A DNA stretch of 47,450 bases, taken from positions 1 to 47,450 of the forward strand of contig JAHJAM010000019.1 of NCBI GenBank assembly GCA_018814025.1. The letters run 5' to 3'. The notes below the pieces were generated by a model. It was given only the letters and a program-made list of their open reading frames with translations. It had not been told where the DNA came from and searched no databases. Source of the stretch: Patescibacteria group bacterium. GTDB taxonomy: Bacteria; Patescibacteriota; Patescibacteriia; UBA9934; GWF2-40-263. Within the stretch, counting starts at the first letter, position 1, and each line of letters begins with the position of its first letter. Position numbers and translations under genes: made by a program. Positions 6,441-47,383 of the stretch are shown piece after piece.

Positions 6441-7442
6441 TTATAATTCTTGACTGGCTAATTCGTCCGGCCAATCAAAGGTTTTAAAGGTCCAAGCGGC
6501 TAAGGCCTTGGCGTCTTGGAAACGCCCGTCTTTCGTGTAAGAACCCAGGACGACCACGATAATTTCATGCACGTTGTTTTCGGAAATCAACGAACCGAAG
6601 CAGTAGCCGGCCTCGGGCAAAAAACCGGTTTTGCCGCCCACAATCTTGTACGGGTCTTGATTCAAGAAAGAGCCGAGAAGTTCATCGGTGCTGGCGATAT
6701 AATAGGCGCGGCCGGATGAGCCCGTGAACACGGCCGCGGGCAGCTGGGTGGCGGTGCGGATGATTTCGTTGGCCATGGCCCAATCAATGAGTTTGACGAT
6801 GTCGTGAACCACGGAACGGTTTTCCGAAGACAAGCCCGTGGAATCCACGAAAGTGGTGTTCTGCATGCCCAGGGCCGCGGCTTTTTCATTCATGCGAGCC
6901 ACAAAATCACCCAAGCTCAAGCCGGAAAGCCGAACCAGAGCCGCGGTAGCGGAGTTGTCAGAACCGATCAGGCTGGCGTGCAGCAAATCGCGAATCGTGA
7001 TCTCGTCAGCGACTTGAATATGCTGCGTGGCGCCGGAGCGGAGGTCTTCGGATTGAAGGCTGGCCCGGGCGGCCAAATCCGGATTGCCATCGAGAAATAC
7101 CAGCGCGGTCATGAGCTTAACCAGGCTGCCGATCGAACGCGGTTCCGCGGAATTTTTCTCAAACAGAATTTTGCCCGTGGCTCGATCCACCACGGTGGCG
7201 CTGACCGCGCTGGTCACTACGCCGATGCTATTGGGATCGAGTTTCACCGGCTCCAGAGCTGCGTCTTTGGATTCGGGAAAATCCCGACCCAATAAATCCA
7301 TGGCTTCAAACACGGCCGCGGTTTGCACCCGCTCCCCGGCTTCGGGCAAGGTGGCGGCCATTTCAATCAAAGCCGTGTCTGGCGGAAACATCTGCAAGAG
7401 GCTGGTGGCTAAAACTAATTGAGCGACTAAACGAAAAACCAT
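6441..7442 (-). CDS. dacA: D-alanyl-D-alanine carboxypeptidase (peptidase S11)
   Basis: 333 residues. All three penicillin-binding motifs are present: S106-x-x-K (SLVK), S161-D-N (SDN) and K271-T-G (KTG). It trims the terminal D-Ala of peptidoglycan stem peptides outside the membrane. The hydrophobic N-terminus (MVFRLVAQLVLATSLLQMF) is a signal peptide or anchor. About 50 residues of linker precede the catalytic domain, and there is no C-terminal PBP5-type beta domain or amphipathic anchor. Its start lies two bases after the scpB stop. Confidence 0.93.
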   Translation of the reverse strand: MVFRLVAQLVLATSLLQMFPPDTALIEMAATLPEAGERVQTAAVFEAMDLLGRDFPESKDAALEPVKLDPNSIGVVTSAVSATVVDRATGKILFEKNSAEPRSIGSLVKLMTALVFLDGNPDLAARASLQSEDLRSGATQHIQVADEITIRDLLHASLIGSDNSATAALVRLSGLSLGDFVARMNEKAAALGMQNTTFVDSTGLSSENRSVVHDIVKLIDWAMANEIIRTATQLPAAVFTGSSGRAYYIASTDELLGSFLNQDPYKIVGGKTGFLPEAGYCFGSLISENNVHEIIVVVLGSYTKDGRFQDAKALAAWTFKTFDWPDELASQEL

Positions 7443-7444
7443 AA

Positions 7445-7999
7445 TTATTCCTCGGCGTTTTTAGCGGCTAATTCTTGAATCATGGCCGTAATTTTTTCAT
7501 TGTCATGTAGGGTTTGATAATCAGGCAGCTGGCTGATATCGGTTAAGCCCAAATGGCGCAAAAGCCGGGTGGAAATGGTGTAAACCGGCTGAAGCTTGGC
7601 TTGATCTTCCCGTTCCTCCACCAAGGCGCGCATTAAAAGATTGCGAATGATAATAGAACAATTAATGCCGCGGATTTGTTCGATTTCCGGTTTGGTGATG
7701 GGACCGCGATAAGCGATGATGGTCAAGGTTTCCAATTGTGGACGAGTTAATTCGCCGGAGACTTCTTGTTTGAGAAAATTTGATAAGACTTCGCTTTGGT
7801 TGGGATTGGAAACAAATTGGAGTTTGCGATCATGCTCAACCAAATGAATGCCGGACTCTTCGGTATTAAAACGAGTTCGAATATCCGCCACGGCTTCCTG
7901 CAAAACTTCATCCGAAACATCCAGGGTCTTTTTGATTAAAGACAGAGGCGTGGGTTTGGCGGAAGCGAACAGCATTGATTCAATTGAGGTGGTGAGCAT
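7445..7999 (-). CDS. scpB: Segregation and condensation protein B
   Basis: 184 residues. Two winged-helix domains: the first from SIESMLFASAKPTPLSLIKKTL, the second carrying LTRPQLETLTIIAYRGPITKPEIEQIRGINC, the family signature. ScpB dimers bind ScpA, the kleisin that bridges the two SMC heads, so the product acts in chromosome condensation. The SMC gene is not in this window. It is separated from scpA by 80 bases that contain a three-unit tandem repeat, and coupled to dacA downstream. Confidence 0.95.
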   Translation of the reverse strand: MLTTSIESMLFASAKPTPLSLIKKTLDVSDEVLQEAVADIRTRFNTEESGIHLVEHDRKLQFVSNPNQSEVLSNFLKQEVSGELTRPQLETLTIIAYRGPITKPEIEQIRGINCSIIIRNLLMRALVEEREDQAKLQPVYTISTRLLRHLGLTDISQLPDYQTLHDNEKITAMIQELAAKNAEE

Positions 8000-8867: not shown

Positions 8868-10268
8868 TTATTTTTTCACTTGGATGTGAACGTCATTTAA
8901 TGCTTTGTCCGGAACCGGGCTGGGCGCGCCCATCATCAGGTCTCGGCCGTCTCCGGTTTTGGGAAAAGCGATGACTTCGCGAATATTCTTTTCTCCGCAC
9001 AAGATGGCCACCAACCGATCTAAGCCGAAAGCGATGCCGCCGTGGGGCGGAGCGCCGAAGGAAAAAGCTTCGAACATGTGCCCGAATTTTTCATTGATAT
9101 CATCTTCGGACAAACCCATGATTTCAAAGACGCGGCGCAAAGCCTCGGGCTCGTGGTTGCGGATTGAGCCGCCGCCGATTTCAAAACCGTTCAAGACAAT
9201 GTCGTATTGGGAAGTAAGGATTTCATCAATCCCCTCTTTGGCCATCAACTTGTCATGATGTTCGGGCACGGCGCGGGAAAATGGATTGTGCGTGAAAGTC
9301 CAACCGCCGTCTTGGGTCTTTTAAAAAAACGGGAAATCAATCACCCAACAGAAAGCGAGCACGTTGGGATCGTTGGGATCCTGGCGCAAATCCGGACGGT
9401 CCGTGCCGTATTTCTCCATGGCTTCCTTGTAGGACAGGCGCGGGAAAGGGGTTTCTTGAATGGTCTTGGCCGGAGCTAAAGTCTTGACCAGTTCGATCAG
9501 CAAAGCCTCAATCAGGGCCATCACATCCTCGCGCTCGACGAAGCTCATTTCCAAATCCATTTGCGTGAATTCGGGCTGGCGATCCCCTCTTTGATCCTCA
9601 TCGCGAAAACAGCGCGCGATTTGGAAATAGCGCTCCAGGCCGGCCACCATTAAAAGCTGTTTAAACTGCTGGGGGGATTGGGGTAGGACGTAGAATTTAC
9701 CTGCATGCAAACGAGACGGAACCAGGTACTCGCGCGCGCCTTCGGGCGTATCTTTAGTGAGACAAGGCGTTTCCACTTCCACGAAATCGCGGGTGCGCAA
9801 ATAGCCGCGCAAGAAAGCGACAATTTGGTCGCGGTAGCGAATGTTTTTTTGCACCCGATCGGAGCGCAAATCCAAATAGCGATATTTCAGGCGCAATTCC
9901 TCATTGATCGGACTGGTGTCTTTATCAACTTCAAACGGCGGGGTTTCTGAGCTGTTTAAGATGGTGAGCTTTTGGATGCCGACTTCGATTTCACCCGTGG
10001 CCATGTCCGGATTAACTTGCTTGGCGCCGCGTTTTTGCACCGCGCCTTCGATCTGAACCACATACTCAGGCTTGAGCGCATCCACGGCTTTGATGGTTTC
10101 TTCATCCAAGTCCGGCTTGTAACAGACCACCTGGACCACGCCGGTGCCGTCGCGCAGATCGATAAACACGAGCTTATCGCCCATGGTGCGGATGGTTTTG
10201 GCCCAGCCGTTCAAGCGAACCGTTTCGCCAGCTTTGTTAGGGGTTTCTTTAATCCAAGTTCTTTCCAT
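8868..10268 (-). pseudogene. aspS: Aspartyl-tRNA synthetase interrupted by one in-frame TAA
   Basis: Charges tRNA-Asp. The 5' part (10268 to the TAA at 9323-9321, 315 residues) has the OB-fold anticodon domain, YRYLDLRSD, QSPQQFKQLLM and motif 2 (FRDEDQRGDRQPEFTQ), and stops right after WVIDFPFF. The same frame goes on at once with KTQDGGWTFTHNPFS, then VLNGFEIGGGSIRNH and motif 3 (GIAFGLDRLVAIL), ending at 8868. Relatives usually have Glu after FPxF, so one change (GAA to TAA) explains the break. A GTG at 9269 could restart translation, but neither half has all motifs. The total of about 466 codons is short because the GAD insertion is missing. It could be a true nonsense mutation, a minority allele or an assembly error; the gene is normally essential. 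Confidence 0.9.
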
Positions 10269-10480: not shown

Positions 10481-10508
10481 AAAAAGCCGCCTGGCAAAGC
10501 CGGGCGGC
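10481..10508 (-). terminator. Terminator of the first DUF5701-like gene
   Basis: Minus strand GCCGCCCGGC, loop TTT, GCCAGGCGGC, then TTTTTATTTAT. It closes a single-gene transcript. Confidence 0.9.
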
Positions 10509-10556
10509 GGAGAGAAGAGGGATCAAAAAGAGAAAAGGATCAAAGGGTTGAGGGGT

Positions 10557-11306
10557 TCACTCCCGGCAGGAAGCGGCACCGCAGAACGAGATGGCAACAT
10601 CGTCGTGGCGCCAGCAGAGCCCGGCCCGGCCGTCCCAGACCTCGAGGGAGGCACAGCCGTCACGGTACTCGGCGAGAACCGAACCTGGTAGATCCATAAC
10701 GTGCTCGTCCTCGCGCGCACAGTCCGGGAAGTGCAGGTAGCAACAGATGCCCGCGAGGTCCGTGCCCGAGAACTCGCCGTTCTTGAGTTCGTCGCGACAG
10801 GTGCTGGGTTTGCGCTTGTGGTTGCGGCGTCCGTCGTGCATGCGCACCCACTTGGGCGCCTGGGAAGTGGCGTGGCGCTCGTCGTAGGGCTCGAGGGTCT
10901 GATCGTCAGCGTTGAAAACCACGCCAATCAATCGGCAAGTCTTGACGATGCTCTGCAAGCGAGGCTCTGTGAGCACGAGCATAGGCTTGTCCGGATCGTC
11001 GGCCTTGAGGTGCTCGGGCACTTCGGGGATGGTGGCGAGGTAGTTCTCGAACTTCTCGTATCCGAGCTCGCGGCCGAAGCCCTTGTCCCAGAACCGCTTG
11101 GCCTGGATGACGCGGAGGTCGTCGGACTGGCCGGACTTCCGGGCGCCTTTCTTGCGAGCTGCCTTCTGGCCGGCCACTCCCCCGTCGGTCAGGCGGCGGA
11201 TCAGCTCTTCGACCTCGGAGCCGAGGCCGGGCTGGTTGCGCCTGAGGCGCGCTTTTTGAATCTCATGCAATTGCGCGATGTGGGCCACAGTGAAAAGATC
11301 GGACAT
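10557..11306 (-). CDS. DUF5701-like protein, copy 1
   Basis: 249 residues from the ATG at 11306, preceded by Shine-Dalgarno GGAGGAG at 5-base spacing; an ATG four codons earlier would put that motif inside the gene. Function unknown. The N-terminal third is basic and variable (RKKGARKSGQ). The conserved part begins RVIQAKRFWDKGFGRELGYEKF, then TIPEVPEHLKADDPDKP, LEPYDERHA, PKWVRMHDGRRNHKRKPSTC, CCYLHFPDC, HVMDLPGS and a final CGAASCRE. Cys and His residues recur, so metal binding is possible. The end has the order of DUF5701 (tail G-x-A-S-C), and from memory such proteins occur in several copies in Parcubacteria. Codons are richer in GAG and CTC than in neighbouring genes. A near twin lies at 32767-33483. 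Confidence 0.85.
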   Translation of the reverse strand: MSDLFTVAHIAQLHEIQKARLRRNQPGLGSEVEELIRRLTDGGVAGQKAARKKGARKSGQSDDLRVIQAKRFWDKGFGRELGYEKFENYLATIPEVPEHLKADDPDKPMLVLTEPRLQSIVKTCRLIGVVFNADDQTLEPYDERHATSQAPKWVRMHDGRRNHKRKPSTCRDELKNGEFSGTDLAGICCYLHFPDCAREDEHVMDLPGSVLAEYRDGCASLEVWDGRAGLCWRHDDVAISFCGAASCRE

Positions 11307-11418
11307 ATGCTCCTCCATCCCTTGGCGTCCTCACAACAGCTGGCGCCATTGCTTTGGCTACCCAAGGACAGATTCCGCGATTCCGTCGCGAACGGGTTCC
11401 GGCCGGGCTGGCCAGATA
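11307..11418 (-). promoter_or_regulatory. Structured 5' leader of DUF5701-like copy 1
   Basis: About 112-base leader between the predicted start and the ATG. CGCGA-CGGAA-TCGCG forms an upstream hairpin. CCTTGG (11367-11362) can pair with CCAAGG (11325-11320), closing three bases before the Shine-Dalgarno. TGGCG/CGCCA can pair as an alternative. The twin gene at 33483 has the same layout with changed but still pairing bases (ATCTTGG/CCAAGAT). This suggests a cis-acting RNA that controls access to the ribosome site. Confidence 0.55.
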
Positions 11419-11424
11419 ACGGTT

Positions 11425-11454
11425 TAGATAATCATGAAAATGAGTTTCTGTCAA
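11425..11454 (-). promoter_or_regulatory. Promoter of DUF5701-like copy 1
   Basis: Minus strand TTGACA (11454-11449), 18 bases, TATCTA (11430-11425), or TTATCT with 17 bases. The start is near 11418. Confidence 0.68.
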
Positions 11455-11973: not shown

Positions 11974-12002
11974 AATATAACTGATTTTGAGGTTTTGGTC
12001 AA
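11974..12002 (-). promoter_or_regulatory. Promoter of the small membrane protein gene
   Basis: Minus strand TTGACC (12002-11997), 17 bases, TATATT (11979-11974). The -35 box overlaps the asnS stop codon. Confidence 0.7.
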
Positions 12003-13297
12003 GGGCTCTTGCGGTTGATCAGGCGCGGGAACGGGATGGTTTCGCGCACATGCTCCAAACCGCAGATCCAGGCCACTAAACGCTCTAAACCGTAGCCGAA
12101 GCCGGAATGCGGGACGCTGCCGTATCGGCGCAGGTCTAAATACCAGTCAAAATCCTTTGGATCTAAATGGTGTTCATTGATGCGCTTCAACAGTTCATCA
12201 TAATCATCTTCGCGCTGCGATCCGCCGATAATTTCGCCGTAGCCCTCGGGCGCTAACAGATCATTATTTAAAACCCGAGTCGGATCGGCCGGGTCGCGCT
12301 TCATGTAAAAAGCTTTGACCGCGGCCGGATATTTCTCAATAAAAATCGGTCGGTCGTACTGCTTGGTCAAAATAGTTTCATCATCCCCGCCCAAGTCGTC
12401 CAGATCGCCGATATCGCTGCCGAGTTCGCGTAATTTGGCGATGGCCTCGGCGTGGGTCATTCGGACAAACGGAGCTTGAATTTTTTCCAAAACAGAAACA
12501 TCGCGCTCCAAAATTTTCAGTTCGGATTGGTTTTGCTTCAGCACTTCGGACACGATGCGAACTACCAATTCCTCTTGGGTCTTAAGGTTATCTTCATGAG
12601 TGGCATAAGCGGCCTCGGCATCCATCATCCAAAACTCGGTGAGGTGGCGGCGGGTTTTGGATTTTTCCGCCCGAAAGACCGGCCCAAAATCAAAACACTT
12701 GCCCAGGCTCATGATGCCGGCTTCCAAATAAAGCTGGCCGGACTGGGTGAGATAAGCTTGGCCCAGATCAAAATAATCCATGGCAAACAATTCGGTGGTG
12801 CCTTCGCAAGCGCTCGGAGTCAAAATCGGCGAATCAAATTTGATGAAGCTATTTTCATGAAAATAATCGTAAGTGGCGCGGATGATGGTGTCGCGCACGC
12901 GCAAAATCGCCCATTGCTTTTCGGAGCGCAGCCAGAGGTGGCGATTATCCAAAAGAAAATCCGGACCGTGTTCTTTTTTGCCAATGGGATAATCCTCGGG
13001 CGCGACTTGTACGACTTCAATACCCTTGCCCTCTAATTCAAAACCGGAGGGGGCGCGAGTGTCGGCTTTCACCAAACCCGTGACTTTGACGGACGACTCA
13101 ATGCGCAGCGATTGCAAAGCTTCCCATTGCTCATCGGATAAATCAGCTTTAGAAAAAACCACTTGCACGCGGCCGGAGCCGTCGCGGAATTGTAAAAAGA
13201 AAATCTTGCCGCTTGAGCGGAAGTTGTAGCACCAGCCTTGGAGGGTGATTTCTTGGCCGGAGTGTTGGGAGATTTGGGAGACGGTGGTGGTTTCCAT
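11999..13297 (-). CDS. asnS: Asparaginyl-tRNA synthetase
   Basis: 432 residues. A class II enzyme that charges tRNA-Asn. OB-fold anticodon-binding part at residues 15-105 (TLQGWCYNFRSSGKIFFLQFRDGSG). Motif 1 at about 150 (FDSPILTPSACEGTTELF), motif 2 (GPVFRAEKSKTRRHLTEFWMMDAE) and motif 3 (SGFGYGLERLVAWICG) near the end. SACEGTTELF and GEIIGGSQRE separate AsnRS from AspRS. Length is normal. The start METTTVSQ at 13297 follows a repeat-rich spacer and has no Shine-Dalgarno. Confidence 0.95.
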   Translation of the reverse strand: METTTVSQISQHSGQEITLQGWCYNFRSSGKIFFLQFRDGSGRVQVVFSKADLSDEQWEALQSLRIESSVKVTGLVKADTRAPSGFELEGKGIEVVQVAPEDYPIGKKEHGPDFLLDNRHLWLRSEKQWAILRVRDTIIRATYDYFHENSFIKFDSPILTPSACEGTTELFAMDYFDLGQAYLTQSGQLYLEAGIMSLGKCFDFGPVFRAEKSKTRRHLTEFWMMDAEAAYATHEDNLKTQEELVVRIVSEVLKQNQSELKILERDVSVLEKIQAPFVRMTHAEAIAKLRELGSDIGDLDDLGGDDETILTKQYDRPIFIEKYPAAVKAFYMKRDPADPTRVLNNDLLAPEGYGEIIGGSQREDDYDELLKRINEHHLDPKDFDWYLDLRRYGSVPHSGFGYGLERLVAWICGLEHVRETIPFPRLINRKSP

Positions 13298-32484: not shown

Positions 32485-32690
32485 CCCAGCGGTTTGCGGA
32501 CAAATGAATGATTGATTTTTCAAGCTGGCGTGCGGAACAATGTTCAAGCAAACCAAGGAGTGTCCCGTTGGATCGCGCTCTTTGGTTGGATAATCCAACT
32601 AAAATCTGGCGATAGCCCTTTTGGGGATTTCGGGGACGGCAAACCTTGGTCGGCCGCACATTACCCTACTCTCACTTTCATTATAACGGA

Positions 32691-32719
32691 AAAGCGGCCA
32701 GTCGTAGACTGGCCGCTTA
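32691..32719 (-). terminator. Terminator of DUF5701-like copy 2
   Basis: Minus strand AAGCGGCCAGTC, loop TAC, GACTGGCCGCTT, then TTCCGTT. Twelve paired bases. Confidence 0.85.
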
Positions 32720-32766: not shown

Positions 32767-33483
32767 TCACTCCCGGCAGGAGGAAGCGCCACAGTCCGGG
32801 TAGGAACTGACGCCGAAGAACGAGCTGAGTTTGGCCTGGCCGTCCCACACCCCGAGGCAGGCAGAGTCGCCGCGGTACAGGGCGCCGACCGAACCTGGCA
32901 GATCCATAACATGCTCGCCCTCGCGCACGCAATCCGGATAGTGCAAGTAGCAACAGACGCCCACGAGATCCGTGCCCGAGAACTCGCCGTTCTTGAGTTC
33001 ATCGCGACAGGTACTGGGCTTACGCAGGTGGTTATGGCGCCCGTCGTGCATGCGCACCCACTTGGGCGCCTGGGGAGCGGCGTGGCGCTCGTCGTATGGC
33101 TCGAGGGTCTGGTCATCGTAGACAAACTTGATGCCGATGAGCCGGCAGGTTTTGACGATGCTGTTCAGACGTGGCTCGAGGAGAACCAACAGGGGCTTGT
33201 CCGGATCGTCGGCCTTGAGGTGCTCGGGCACTTCGGGAATGGTCGCGAGGTAGCCTTCAAACTTGTCGAAGCCGAGCTCGCGGCCGAAGCCCTTGTCGAA
33301 GAACCGTTTGGCCTGAATAGTCCGGATGTCATCCTCGACTCCGCCGGCCACACCACCGGACTTGAGTCGGTTGATGAGCTCCTGCAGCTCATCGCGGTAA
33401 CCGTTTCCGCCGTTCTTGACATTGGCCCGCTCGAGCTCGCGCAGGGACACCATCTGGTCGAAAGTAATGAGCTTCTTGGTCAT
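32767..33483 (-). CDS. DUF5701-like protein, copy 2
   Basis: 238 residues from the ATG at 33483, chosen for its Shine-Dalgarno GGAGGA; the frame is open 27 codons further back, into the leader. From about residue 60 on it is nearly the same as copy 1 at 10557: IQAKRFFDKGFGRELGFDKF, TIPEVPEHLKADDPDKP, LEPYDERHA, PKWVRMHDGRHNHLRKPSTC, FSGTDLVGVCCYLHYPDC, HVMDLPGS. The tail is YPDCGASSCRE. The first 50 residues differ. At least six cysteines and several histidines are shared. The function is unknown and there are no membrane segments. Single-gene unit with its own promoter, long leader and terminator. The 3' flanks of the two copies are also similar (GGTTGAGG-GTTCACTCCCGG), pointing to a duplication that included flanking DNA. 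Confidence 0.85.
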   Translation of the reverse strand: MTKKLITFDQMVSLRELERANVKNGGNGYRDELQELINRLKSGGVAGGVEDDIRTIQAKRFFDKGFGRELGFDKFEGYLATIPEVPEHLKADDPDKPLLVLLEPRLNSIVKTCRLIGIKFVYDDQTLEPYDERHAAPQAPKWVRMHDGRHNHLRKPSTCRDELKNGEFSGTDLVGVCCYLHYPDCVREGEHVMDLPGSVGALYRGDSACLGVWDGQAKLSSFFGVSSYPDCGASSCRE

Positions 33484-33599
33484 CGAATCCTCCGAATCTT
33501 GGTATTTTGGCGGCGACTTTTCGGCGCCAAATTGCCCAAGATACAGTACGTATGGGTCCGCCATACACGGGTTTCCGTCGCCAAATCGCGACGAAATAA
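33484..33599 (-). promoter_or_regulatory. Structured 5' leader of DUF5701-like copy 2
   Basis: About 116-base leader with three predicted hairpins: CGTCGC-GATTTG-GCGACG; GTATGG-CGGA-CCCATAC; then ATCTTGG...CCAAGAT enclosing TTTGGCG...CGCCAAA, which closes two bases before GGAGGA. Copy 1 shows the same plan at the same distance from its promoter. Confidence 0.6.
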
Positions 33600-46495: not shown

Positions 46496-47383
46496 CTACT
46501 TTACAGTCTTGATCAACCCGCCACGAGTCGCCACCGCGGCGAATTGTTTCTTTTCGTGAGTGGTAAAATCAGTGTGCATTATGACCTGTCGACTATCTCT
46601 AGCATCGAACCATACAAGAACAGGAACTTGAGCTGTAAAGTCGTTGTCCAAATATCTGTCCGCATCCGGACCAGTAAAAACATGGCCTCCAGCACTCTCT
46701 CTGTTTCCAGAGAATATATGAGTACCAGCCAAAATCATGGCTCGAAGATGCTCTGAACCCTTCCGAAATTGGGGTTGGGGTGAATACTGCACGACGAGAT
46801 GCAGTCCTTCCAGAGCAGTGAGGCCAACTTCATCATCTGGCATACCTGACTGTACCTGCCTGACAGTTTGGCTCAAATAACGCTGACCGTCTTGGAAATA
46901 GACAACGTATCTCTTGGGAATATCTTTGGAAAGATTTGTGTAAGGGGGAGAAACAAAATCCTTCAACCATTCCTGATTACATCCGCCACGACGCTGAAAG
47001 GCGAAACAAAGCCGTTCTTCCCCTTTGACTTTAGCGGATATGAGATAATAATCGGTTTCAGTGGACTTGTTGAGTAGGCCCTTGGTAAGAGCAAGAAGTC
47101 TGTGCAGATCGATCGTCCGATCGACTAGCAACACGCTGTCGAAACGGCCTGCATACTCGGACGGCTGTTCGACAGTTTCGCCCCAGATGGCTCGATACTC
47201 CTGGGCCGACATCCCTTGGCCGTGATCGGTCACCTGATGGTATCCGGCCTCGATCATGGCCTGGACTTGGCCGGTGATGTCGATGACACGGCTAGATGAC
47301 TCCGGGACATCCGATGACTGGCTTCGGGATGGGGTTGGTATGAAGATGAAAAGAGCCATGAGAAGCGCGTACAGCTTGTTCAT
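46496..47383 (-). CDS. Exported DUF5701-like protein, copy 3 (divergent)
   Basis: 295 residues from the ATG at 47383, with Shine-Dalgarno GGAAGGAG; the frame is open 20 codons more. A clear signal peptide (MNKLYALLMALFIFIPTPSRSQ). The N-terminal part VQAMIEAGYHQVTDHGQGMSAQEYRAIWG and FDSVLLVDRTIDLHRLL follows the DUF5701 pattern (Q-x-L-x-x-x-GY, then FVLVV). The C-terminal part KRYVVYFQDGQRYLSQTVRQ, EVGLTALEGLHLVVQYSP and VPVLVWFDARDSRQ aligns in order with copies 1 and 2 (PKWVRMHDGR, then the GTDL-x-G-x-CCYLH-x-P segment and L-x-VWDG). Cysteines are fewer. The relationship is motif-level and needs a profile search. Function unknown; it acts outside the membrane. Confidence 0.8.
   Translation of the reverse strand: MNKLYALLMALFIFIPTPSRSQSSDVPESSSRVIDITGQVQAMIEAGYHQVTDHGQGMSAQEYRAIWGETVEQPSEYAGRFDSVLLVDRTIDLHRLLALTKGLLNKSTETDYYLISAKVKGEERLCFAFQRRGGCNQEWLKDFVSPPYTNLSKDIPKRYVVYFQDGQRYLSQTVRQVQSGMPDDEVGLTALEGLHLVVQYSPQPQFRKGSEHLRAMILAGTHIFSGNRESAGGHVFTGPDADRYLDNDFTAQVPVLVWFDARDSRQVIMHTDFTTHEKKQFAAVATRGGLIKTVK

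Follow-up and report, generated by a model that had tools for sequence, protein, structure and literature searches.

Two near-twin genes of a Patescibacteria group bacterium, here called copies 1 and 2, are very probably target genes of a diversity-generating retroelement (DGR). DGR cassettes with homologous genes are present in five relatives, one template in a relative fits a second gene in trans, and the 3′ ends of copies 1 and 2 have diverged from each other in an adenine-linked manner. We infer that the two genes were diversified by the DGR mechanism.

The stretch of 47,450 nucleotides that was analysed (the window) is the entire contig C16 of a 978-kb genome, whose assembly has 62 contigs and a completeness of 98.85%. 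Its closest named relatives are for the most part Candidatus Uhrbacteria MAGs. An earlier sequence-only reading had described three DUF5701-like genes spread among core genes, and the genes adjoining the three are core genes. A genome search gave two genes of the copy-1/2 type and a single one of the copy-3 type, all on the window contig (Table 1). Copy 1 had been drawn too long, to 11454, as its open frame ends just past 11318. The same reading gave each gene its own promoter and terminator; inverted repeats followed by T-runs, seen by eye 3′ of copies 1 and 2, agree with the terminators, but a sigma-70 promoter is not above chance for either gene. An early idea of a palindrome after the stop codons of copies 1 and 2 was ruled out on reading the DNA.

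Table 1 Features of the three window genes, and of the DGR on contig C25 of the same genome
Feature	Coordinates	Strand	Evidence
Copy 1, probable DUF5701-like DGR target gene, 253 aa, without signal peptide	10557..11318	-	ORF; copy-2 identity; profile match to DGR-linked relatives
Copy 1 VR region, last 44 codons	10557..10688	-	Codon-position shift; differences at relatives' TR-A columns
Copy 1 GCCGGGAGTGA motif, IMH-like, VR 3′ end, overlaps stop codon	10557..10567	-	Motif and TR/VR homology end in relatives
Inverted repeat and T-run 3′ of copy 1, terminator-like	10481..10509	-	By eye; absent from consensus scan list
Copy 2, probable DUF5701-like DGR target gene, 265 aa, without signal peptide	32767..33564	-	ORF; copy-1 identity; profile; structure model
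Copy 2 VR region, last 44 codons	32767..32898	-	Codon-position shift; TR-A columns
Copy 2 GCCGGGAGTGA motif, IMH-like	32767..32777	-	Motif and TR/VR homology end in relatives
Inverted repeat and T-run 3′ of copy 2, terminator-like	32689..32718	-	By eye; absent from consensus scan list
Copy 3, distant exported superfamily member (predicted), 295 aa	46496..47383	-	Profile E = 7.6e-6; hhalign P = 1e-13
Copy 3 signal-peptide-like N-terminus, residues 1-21	47321..47383	-	Sequence inspection
Complete C25 DGR (G000), with 205-aa target ending IPESWKGK...PAAVSAS; outside window	L060:6175-8741		
C25 DGR VR; outside window	L060:~6659-6791		
C25 DGR TR; outside window	L060:~7128-7260		
C25 DGR RT, in-frame G9 tract at 7666; outside window	L060:7644-8741		

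Near copy 1, a class II (D/K/N) aminoacyl-tRNA synthetase is broken into two ORFs on the minus strand, 8868-9269 (PF00152 profile positions 201-307) and 9321-10268 (positions 1-199). Either a frameshift or a sequencing error accounts for the break in this essential-type gene. Another PF00152 gene occupies 11999-13297.

Divergence of copies 1 and 2 at their 3′ ends

Copies 1 and 2 are near twins, as the sequence-only reading had it, with 66% identity over 246 residues (E = 1e-119). Over 142 upstream codons, they differ 17, 14, and 42 times at codon positions 1, 2, and 3, respectively. In the last 44 codons, the numbers become 12, 17, and 9 (Fisher p = 0.001 versus upstream). The shift is limited to these last codons, as a DGR variable repeat (VR) would be expected to show. 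The C-terminal region can be aligned to the templates (TRs) of relatives, and the two copies differ at 20 of the 33 columns where most of those TRs have A, compared with 19 of 103 columns elsewhere (p = 9e-6). This divergence over the last ~44 codons is an apparent signature of adenine mutagenesis. Both genes end in GCCGGGAGTGA, so the IMH-like 3′ boundary of the VR is retained. The ordered C-terminal core shared by the three genes had been seen rightly before, but the hypervariable VR in it went unrecognised.

No TR for copies 1 and 2 was found in the 978-kb assembly with two patterns and a 129-position profile; the profile detected the two VRs only, scoring 84 and 82 bits. Thus, copies 1 and 2 are orphan targets here. 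No RT was found on the window contig. The single RVT_1 gene of the genome resides on contig C25, in a complete DGR with VR, TR, and intact RT that serves an unrelated target; the TR of this DGR has no match in copies 1 and 2. Either the two genes were diversified in the past and are now frozen, or their TR falls in an assembly gap.

Copies 1 and 2 could be active targets now, if their TR, perhaps along with a second RT, is missing from the draft assembly. With 62 contigs there is room for such a loss, several targets of relatives (L106, L113, and L115) are close to or at the end of a contig, where VR/TR repeats that break assemblies would leave them, and the intact C25 RT could act in trans. 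Present activity is nonetheless unlikely, if not very much so, given the high completeness and the sensitivity of the profile search that returned the two VRs only. In addition, third-position differences inside the VRs exceed those from recent homing off one TR, favouring frozen products over a TR in a gap.

The copy 2 structure model has a pLDDT of 82 overall, with a core pLDDT of 95 and a pTM of 0.91, and places the C-terminal VR in the last predicted beta strands. When the model was searched with Foldseek, no match was significant, C-type lectin folds included; the top PDB match was the C-type-lectin-like rhodocetin and the DGR protein TaqVP came 6th, all with E > 1. A C-type lectin fold of the variable domain is therefore unproven on the model. 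The variable end may serve as a ligand-binding surface on a soluble protein, with phage, host-cell, or self ligands as candidates.

DGR cassettes in relatives

When relatives were searched for RTs, these were found directly downstream of copy-1/2 homologues in three genomes (G006, G031, and G072). Scanning for repeats whose mismatches are confined to the adenines of one copy then gave VR/TR pairs at five loci, namely L089 (G006), L090 (G031), L092 (G072), L097 (G010), and L107 of the named Uhrbacteria bin.153. In all five, a family gene ending in the VR is followed by the TR downstream and, where the contig continues, by a DGR-type RT. The VR-TR spacing is 440-451 bp. The RT lies 3′ of the TR in L089, L090, L092, and L107, while the contig of L097/L106 (G010:C45) stops soon after the TR. 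Counting mismatches at TR adenines against those at all other bases gives 15:0 in L089, 21:2 in L090, 21:0 in L092, 16:0 in L097, and 15:0 in L107, an adenine bias with binomial p between 4e-10 and 3e-13 over the five pairs. In L107, which has an intact 346-aa RT after the TR, the TR translated in the VR frame reads NCAYLKVWNGQAKLNLNRNADIANPNYGSLRVR and the gene itself has DCAYLGVWDGQAKLNLDGLAGLANPYCGSLRVR. At motif 4, the RTs read IGNLTSQ, as expected for DGR RTs.

TR/VR homology ends at GCCGGRAGTG, and most pairs have a one-base difference between VR and TR there, comparable to the IMH and IMH* at the repeat ends of known DGRs (PMC3240598). Family members carry GGRAGTG near the gene end, and between them they have it in each of the three reading frames (offsets -8/-11, -18/-24, and -31). 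Protein constraint cannot account for a motif kept in three frames, which points to a DNA element.

A target in trans was found in FW215_bin.11 (G010). There, a lone copy on contig C77 (L112) shares 68 identities with the L106 TR on contig C45, and all 12 mismatches are at TR adenines with none elsewhere. One template thus serves separate genes. For most family members in the named set, no TR was found in the DNA examined, and DUF5701 genes are present in several RT-less genomes. Targets are dispersed over the genome, and copies persist where no template is detectable. More DGR VR/TR pairs in relatives, with targets not assigned to this family, were seen at L091, L093, L096, and L101.

Duplication of ordinary paralogs followed by C-terminal divergence under relaxed or positive selection, with no retroelement involved, would agree with the lack of both a TR and a linked RT for copies 1 and 2 in their genome, and the plentiful synonymous differences upstream do indicate an old duplication. 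Such an origin is improbable, however, as the divergence tracks the adenine columns of relatives' TRs, homologues elsewhere sit in complete DGR cassettes, and the IMH-like motif is kept.

For copies 1 and 2 as DGR targets, each made of a conserved body without a signal peptide and a terminal hypervariable domain, the mechanism would run as follows. A DGR RT would copy the TR into cDNA, placing random bases opposite adenines, and the mutated cDNA would replace the matching VR in which the gene ends, as far as the conserved GCCGGRAGTGA boundary. The codons changed would be mostly of AAC type, so that chosen positions vary and the fold is kept. A single TR could serve several copies in trans, which would help explain the small gene families.

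These loci resemble the clade 2 DGRs of Patescibacteria/CPR in having a TR, a C-terminal VR, and adenine-specific mismatches, as well as an RT just downstream and a CPR host (Roux et al. 2021, PMC8144416). In their targets, too, no transmembrane domain or other conserved domain can be recognised, in line with what is reported for clade 2 (Roux et al. 2021, PMC8144416). The target family is identified here, as the DUF5701 superfamily; the RTs are compared by features rather than tree position. CPR DGRs would thereby gain an identified target family, and the nameless DUF5701 and its relatives a mechanism, at least part of the family being retroelement-written. Further differences from clade 2 are that one TR here serves a second gene on another contig, that there are orphan copies, and that RT genes carry poly-G or GA tracts.

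With the Bordetella phage BPP-1 DGR (Mtd target, brt RT), the loci share TR-to-VR copying, adenine mutagenesis, and a 3′ IMH boundary, but they differ in being cellular and in having a target that is not a tail fibre. A hairpin after the VR is best documented in phage DGRs. Here, a hairpin or cruciform after the VR was not significant, with z from -1.29 to 1.08 across six members, of which four have a TR, unlike in BPP-1, where the hairpin is a required feature (PMC3240598). One degenerate pattern, a weak test, detected no family relative in viral contigs, and a phage origin is not supported.

Copy 3 and the wider family

Copy 3 has no pairwise BLAST match to copies 1 and 2, and only profiles detect its homology. 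Profile AD, built from the copy-1/2 family and three DUF5701 proteins with copy 3 left out, matched copy 3 at E = 7.6e-6, compared with 4.9 for the best of ~860 shuffled decoys. Profile-profile comparison (hhalign) yielded P = 1e-13 over 174 columns. A chance alignment of copy 3, the objection to which the sequence-only reading lay open, is at odds with both values. On profile evidence, the three genes are one protein superfamily, with copy 3 a real but distant homologue.

No Pfam, NCBIfam, or PHROG model matched copies 1-3 above its cut-off; a weak match to Phage_gene29 (E = 0.036) was dismissed as chance. PF18959 (DUF5701) has no match anywhere in the window genome, and the three genes stay below the Pfam gathering cut-off. 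On the other hand, PF18959 and the copy-1/2 profile match the same proteins, two in G192 and one in G172, which have the same ordered core and a variable C-terminus, and a profile of eight PF18959-matched proteins detects copy 1 at 3.8e-5 and copy 2 at 0.0017. The DUF5701 label is thus right at the superfamily level, via these intermediates, but not as Pfam membership. We found no mention of DUF5701 in the literature searched.

Of 60 genomes searched, the window genome among them, 12 hold relatives of copies 1 and 2, commonly with 2 or 3 each and at times close together. Across the class, 12 of 240 genomes have them. The pattern is patchy and multi-copy, bearing out the earlier statement that CPR genomes hold several such genes.

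The N-terminus of copy 3, MNKLYALLMALFIFIPTPSRSQ, looks by eye like a Sec-type signal peptide, as had been noted before. From the mix of cytoplasmic and exported forms, a system was proposed rather than a paralog accident. There is more than accidental duplication here, but the system would be a DGR target family and not a cytoplasmic/exported pair. That the soluble copies work together with an exported copy 3 is highly improbable, even with the homology of copy 3 and its signal-peptide-like start, as the copies share no operon and relatives of copies 1/2 (12 of 60 genomes) and of copy 3 (5 of 60) are found together only in the window genome and G006, which suggests that the two types occur independently. 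Copy 3 has neither a match in the C25 DGR locus nor an IMH-like motif; it appears to be a remote, exported relative that shows no trace of diversification, and nothing ties it to the DGR mechanism.

In G192, four DUF5701 genes (L051, L056, L057, and L058) have varied C-termini, and the genome has no RVT_1 match; these are apparent targets without a mutator. In a 729-aa open frame of another genome (L012, G055:C65), a DUF5701-like domain was seen by eye at the C-terminus of an apparent MFS transporter.

Repeat tracts in RT genes as a candidate switch

The RT matches of five genes in relatives are split over two frames at one and the same place, just 5′ of the GxPIGNLTSQ motif. The frame breaks coincide with a G9 tract in G006:C27, G10 tracts in the two genes of G031 and in G010:C41, and (GA)7 in G072.

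Such tracts are common among DGR-type RT loci. Counting runs on the coding strand in the RT gene or at its start, 15 of 21 loci have at least 9 G, 3 have G7, and 2 have GA repeats, reaching (GA)18 in L131. Poly-G (9-11) or GA tracts are thus found in 17 of the 21 DGR RT genes, or in 20 of 21 when G7 is counted; the one remaining locus is at a contig edge and its tract status is ambiguous. The count leaves out the RTs of G015 and G017, which match RVT_1 but not the DGR RT profile. Tracts are located mid-RT in L089, L090, L091, L095, and L092, and at the 5′ end of the RT in L060, L093, L096, L101, and L126-L134. By reading, 8 loci are in frame and 12 out of frame, although at 5′-end tracts translation from a later start codon could restore the frame, so that only the five mid-gene breaks are firm. 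Homopolymer assembly errors can mimic a frame state, but not the presence of a tract.

Poly-G tracts are known from phase-variable contingency loci in Neisseria and Campylobacter. The RT loci resemble these in having a homopolymer or dinucleotide tract in the frame or at its start, and in being assembled both in and out of frame. They differ in that the gene concerned is a DGR RT, itself a mutator. We lean slightly towards the DGR RT of Uhrbacteria-type genomes being a contingency locus, turned on and off by poly-G or GA slippage. Bursts of targeted hypermutation over the dispersed DUF5701-like genes would then be confined to a random fraction of the population, and favourable variants would be locked in when the RT is off. 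Programmed frameshifting or transcript slippage at the tracts, instead of slippage switching, are live alternatives. If the tract does act as a switch, chance turns targeted hypermutation itself on and off, which would give bacteria whose genomes are very small a diversification strategy with two layers.

The literature searched gave no report of a phase-variable DGR RT or of an RT tract. The DiGReF survey, in the portion consulted, reports frameshifted RTs and no such RT tract (PMC3521204).

The RT-less genomes G014 and G055 have no G9 runs. The 978-kb window genome has only two, one at its RT, in frame with an upstream ATG, and the other intergenic (L118:2351, G000:C29), after a putative membrane protein gene.
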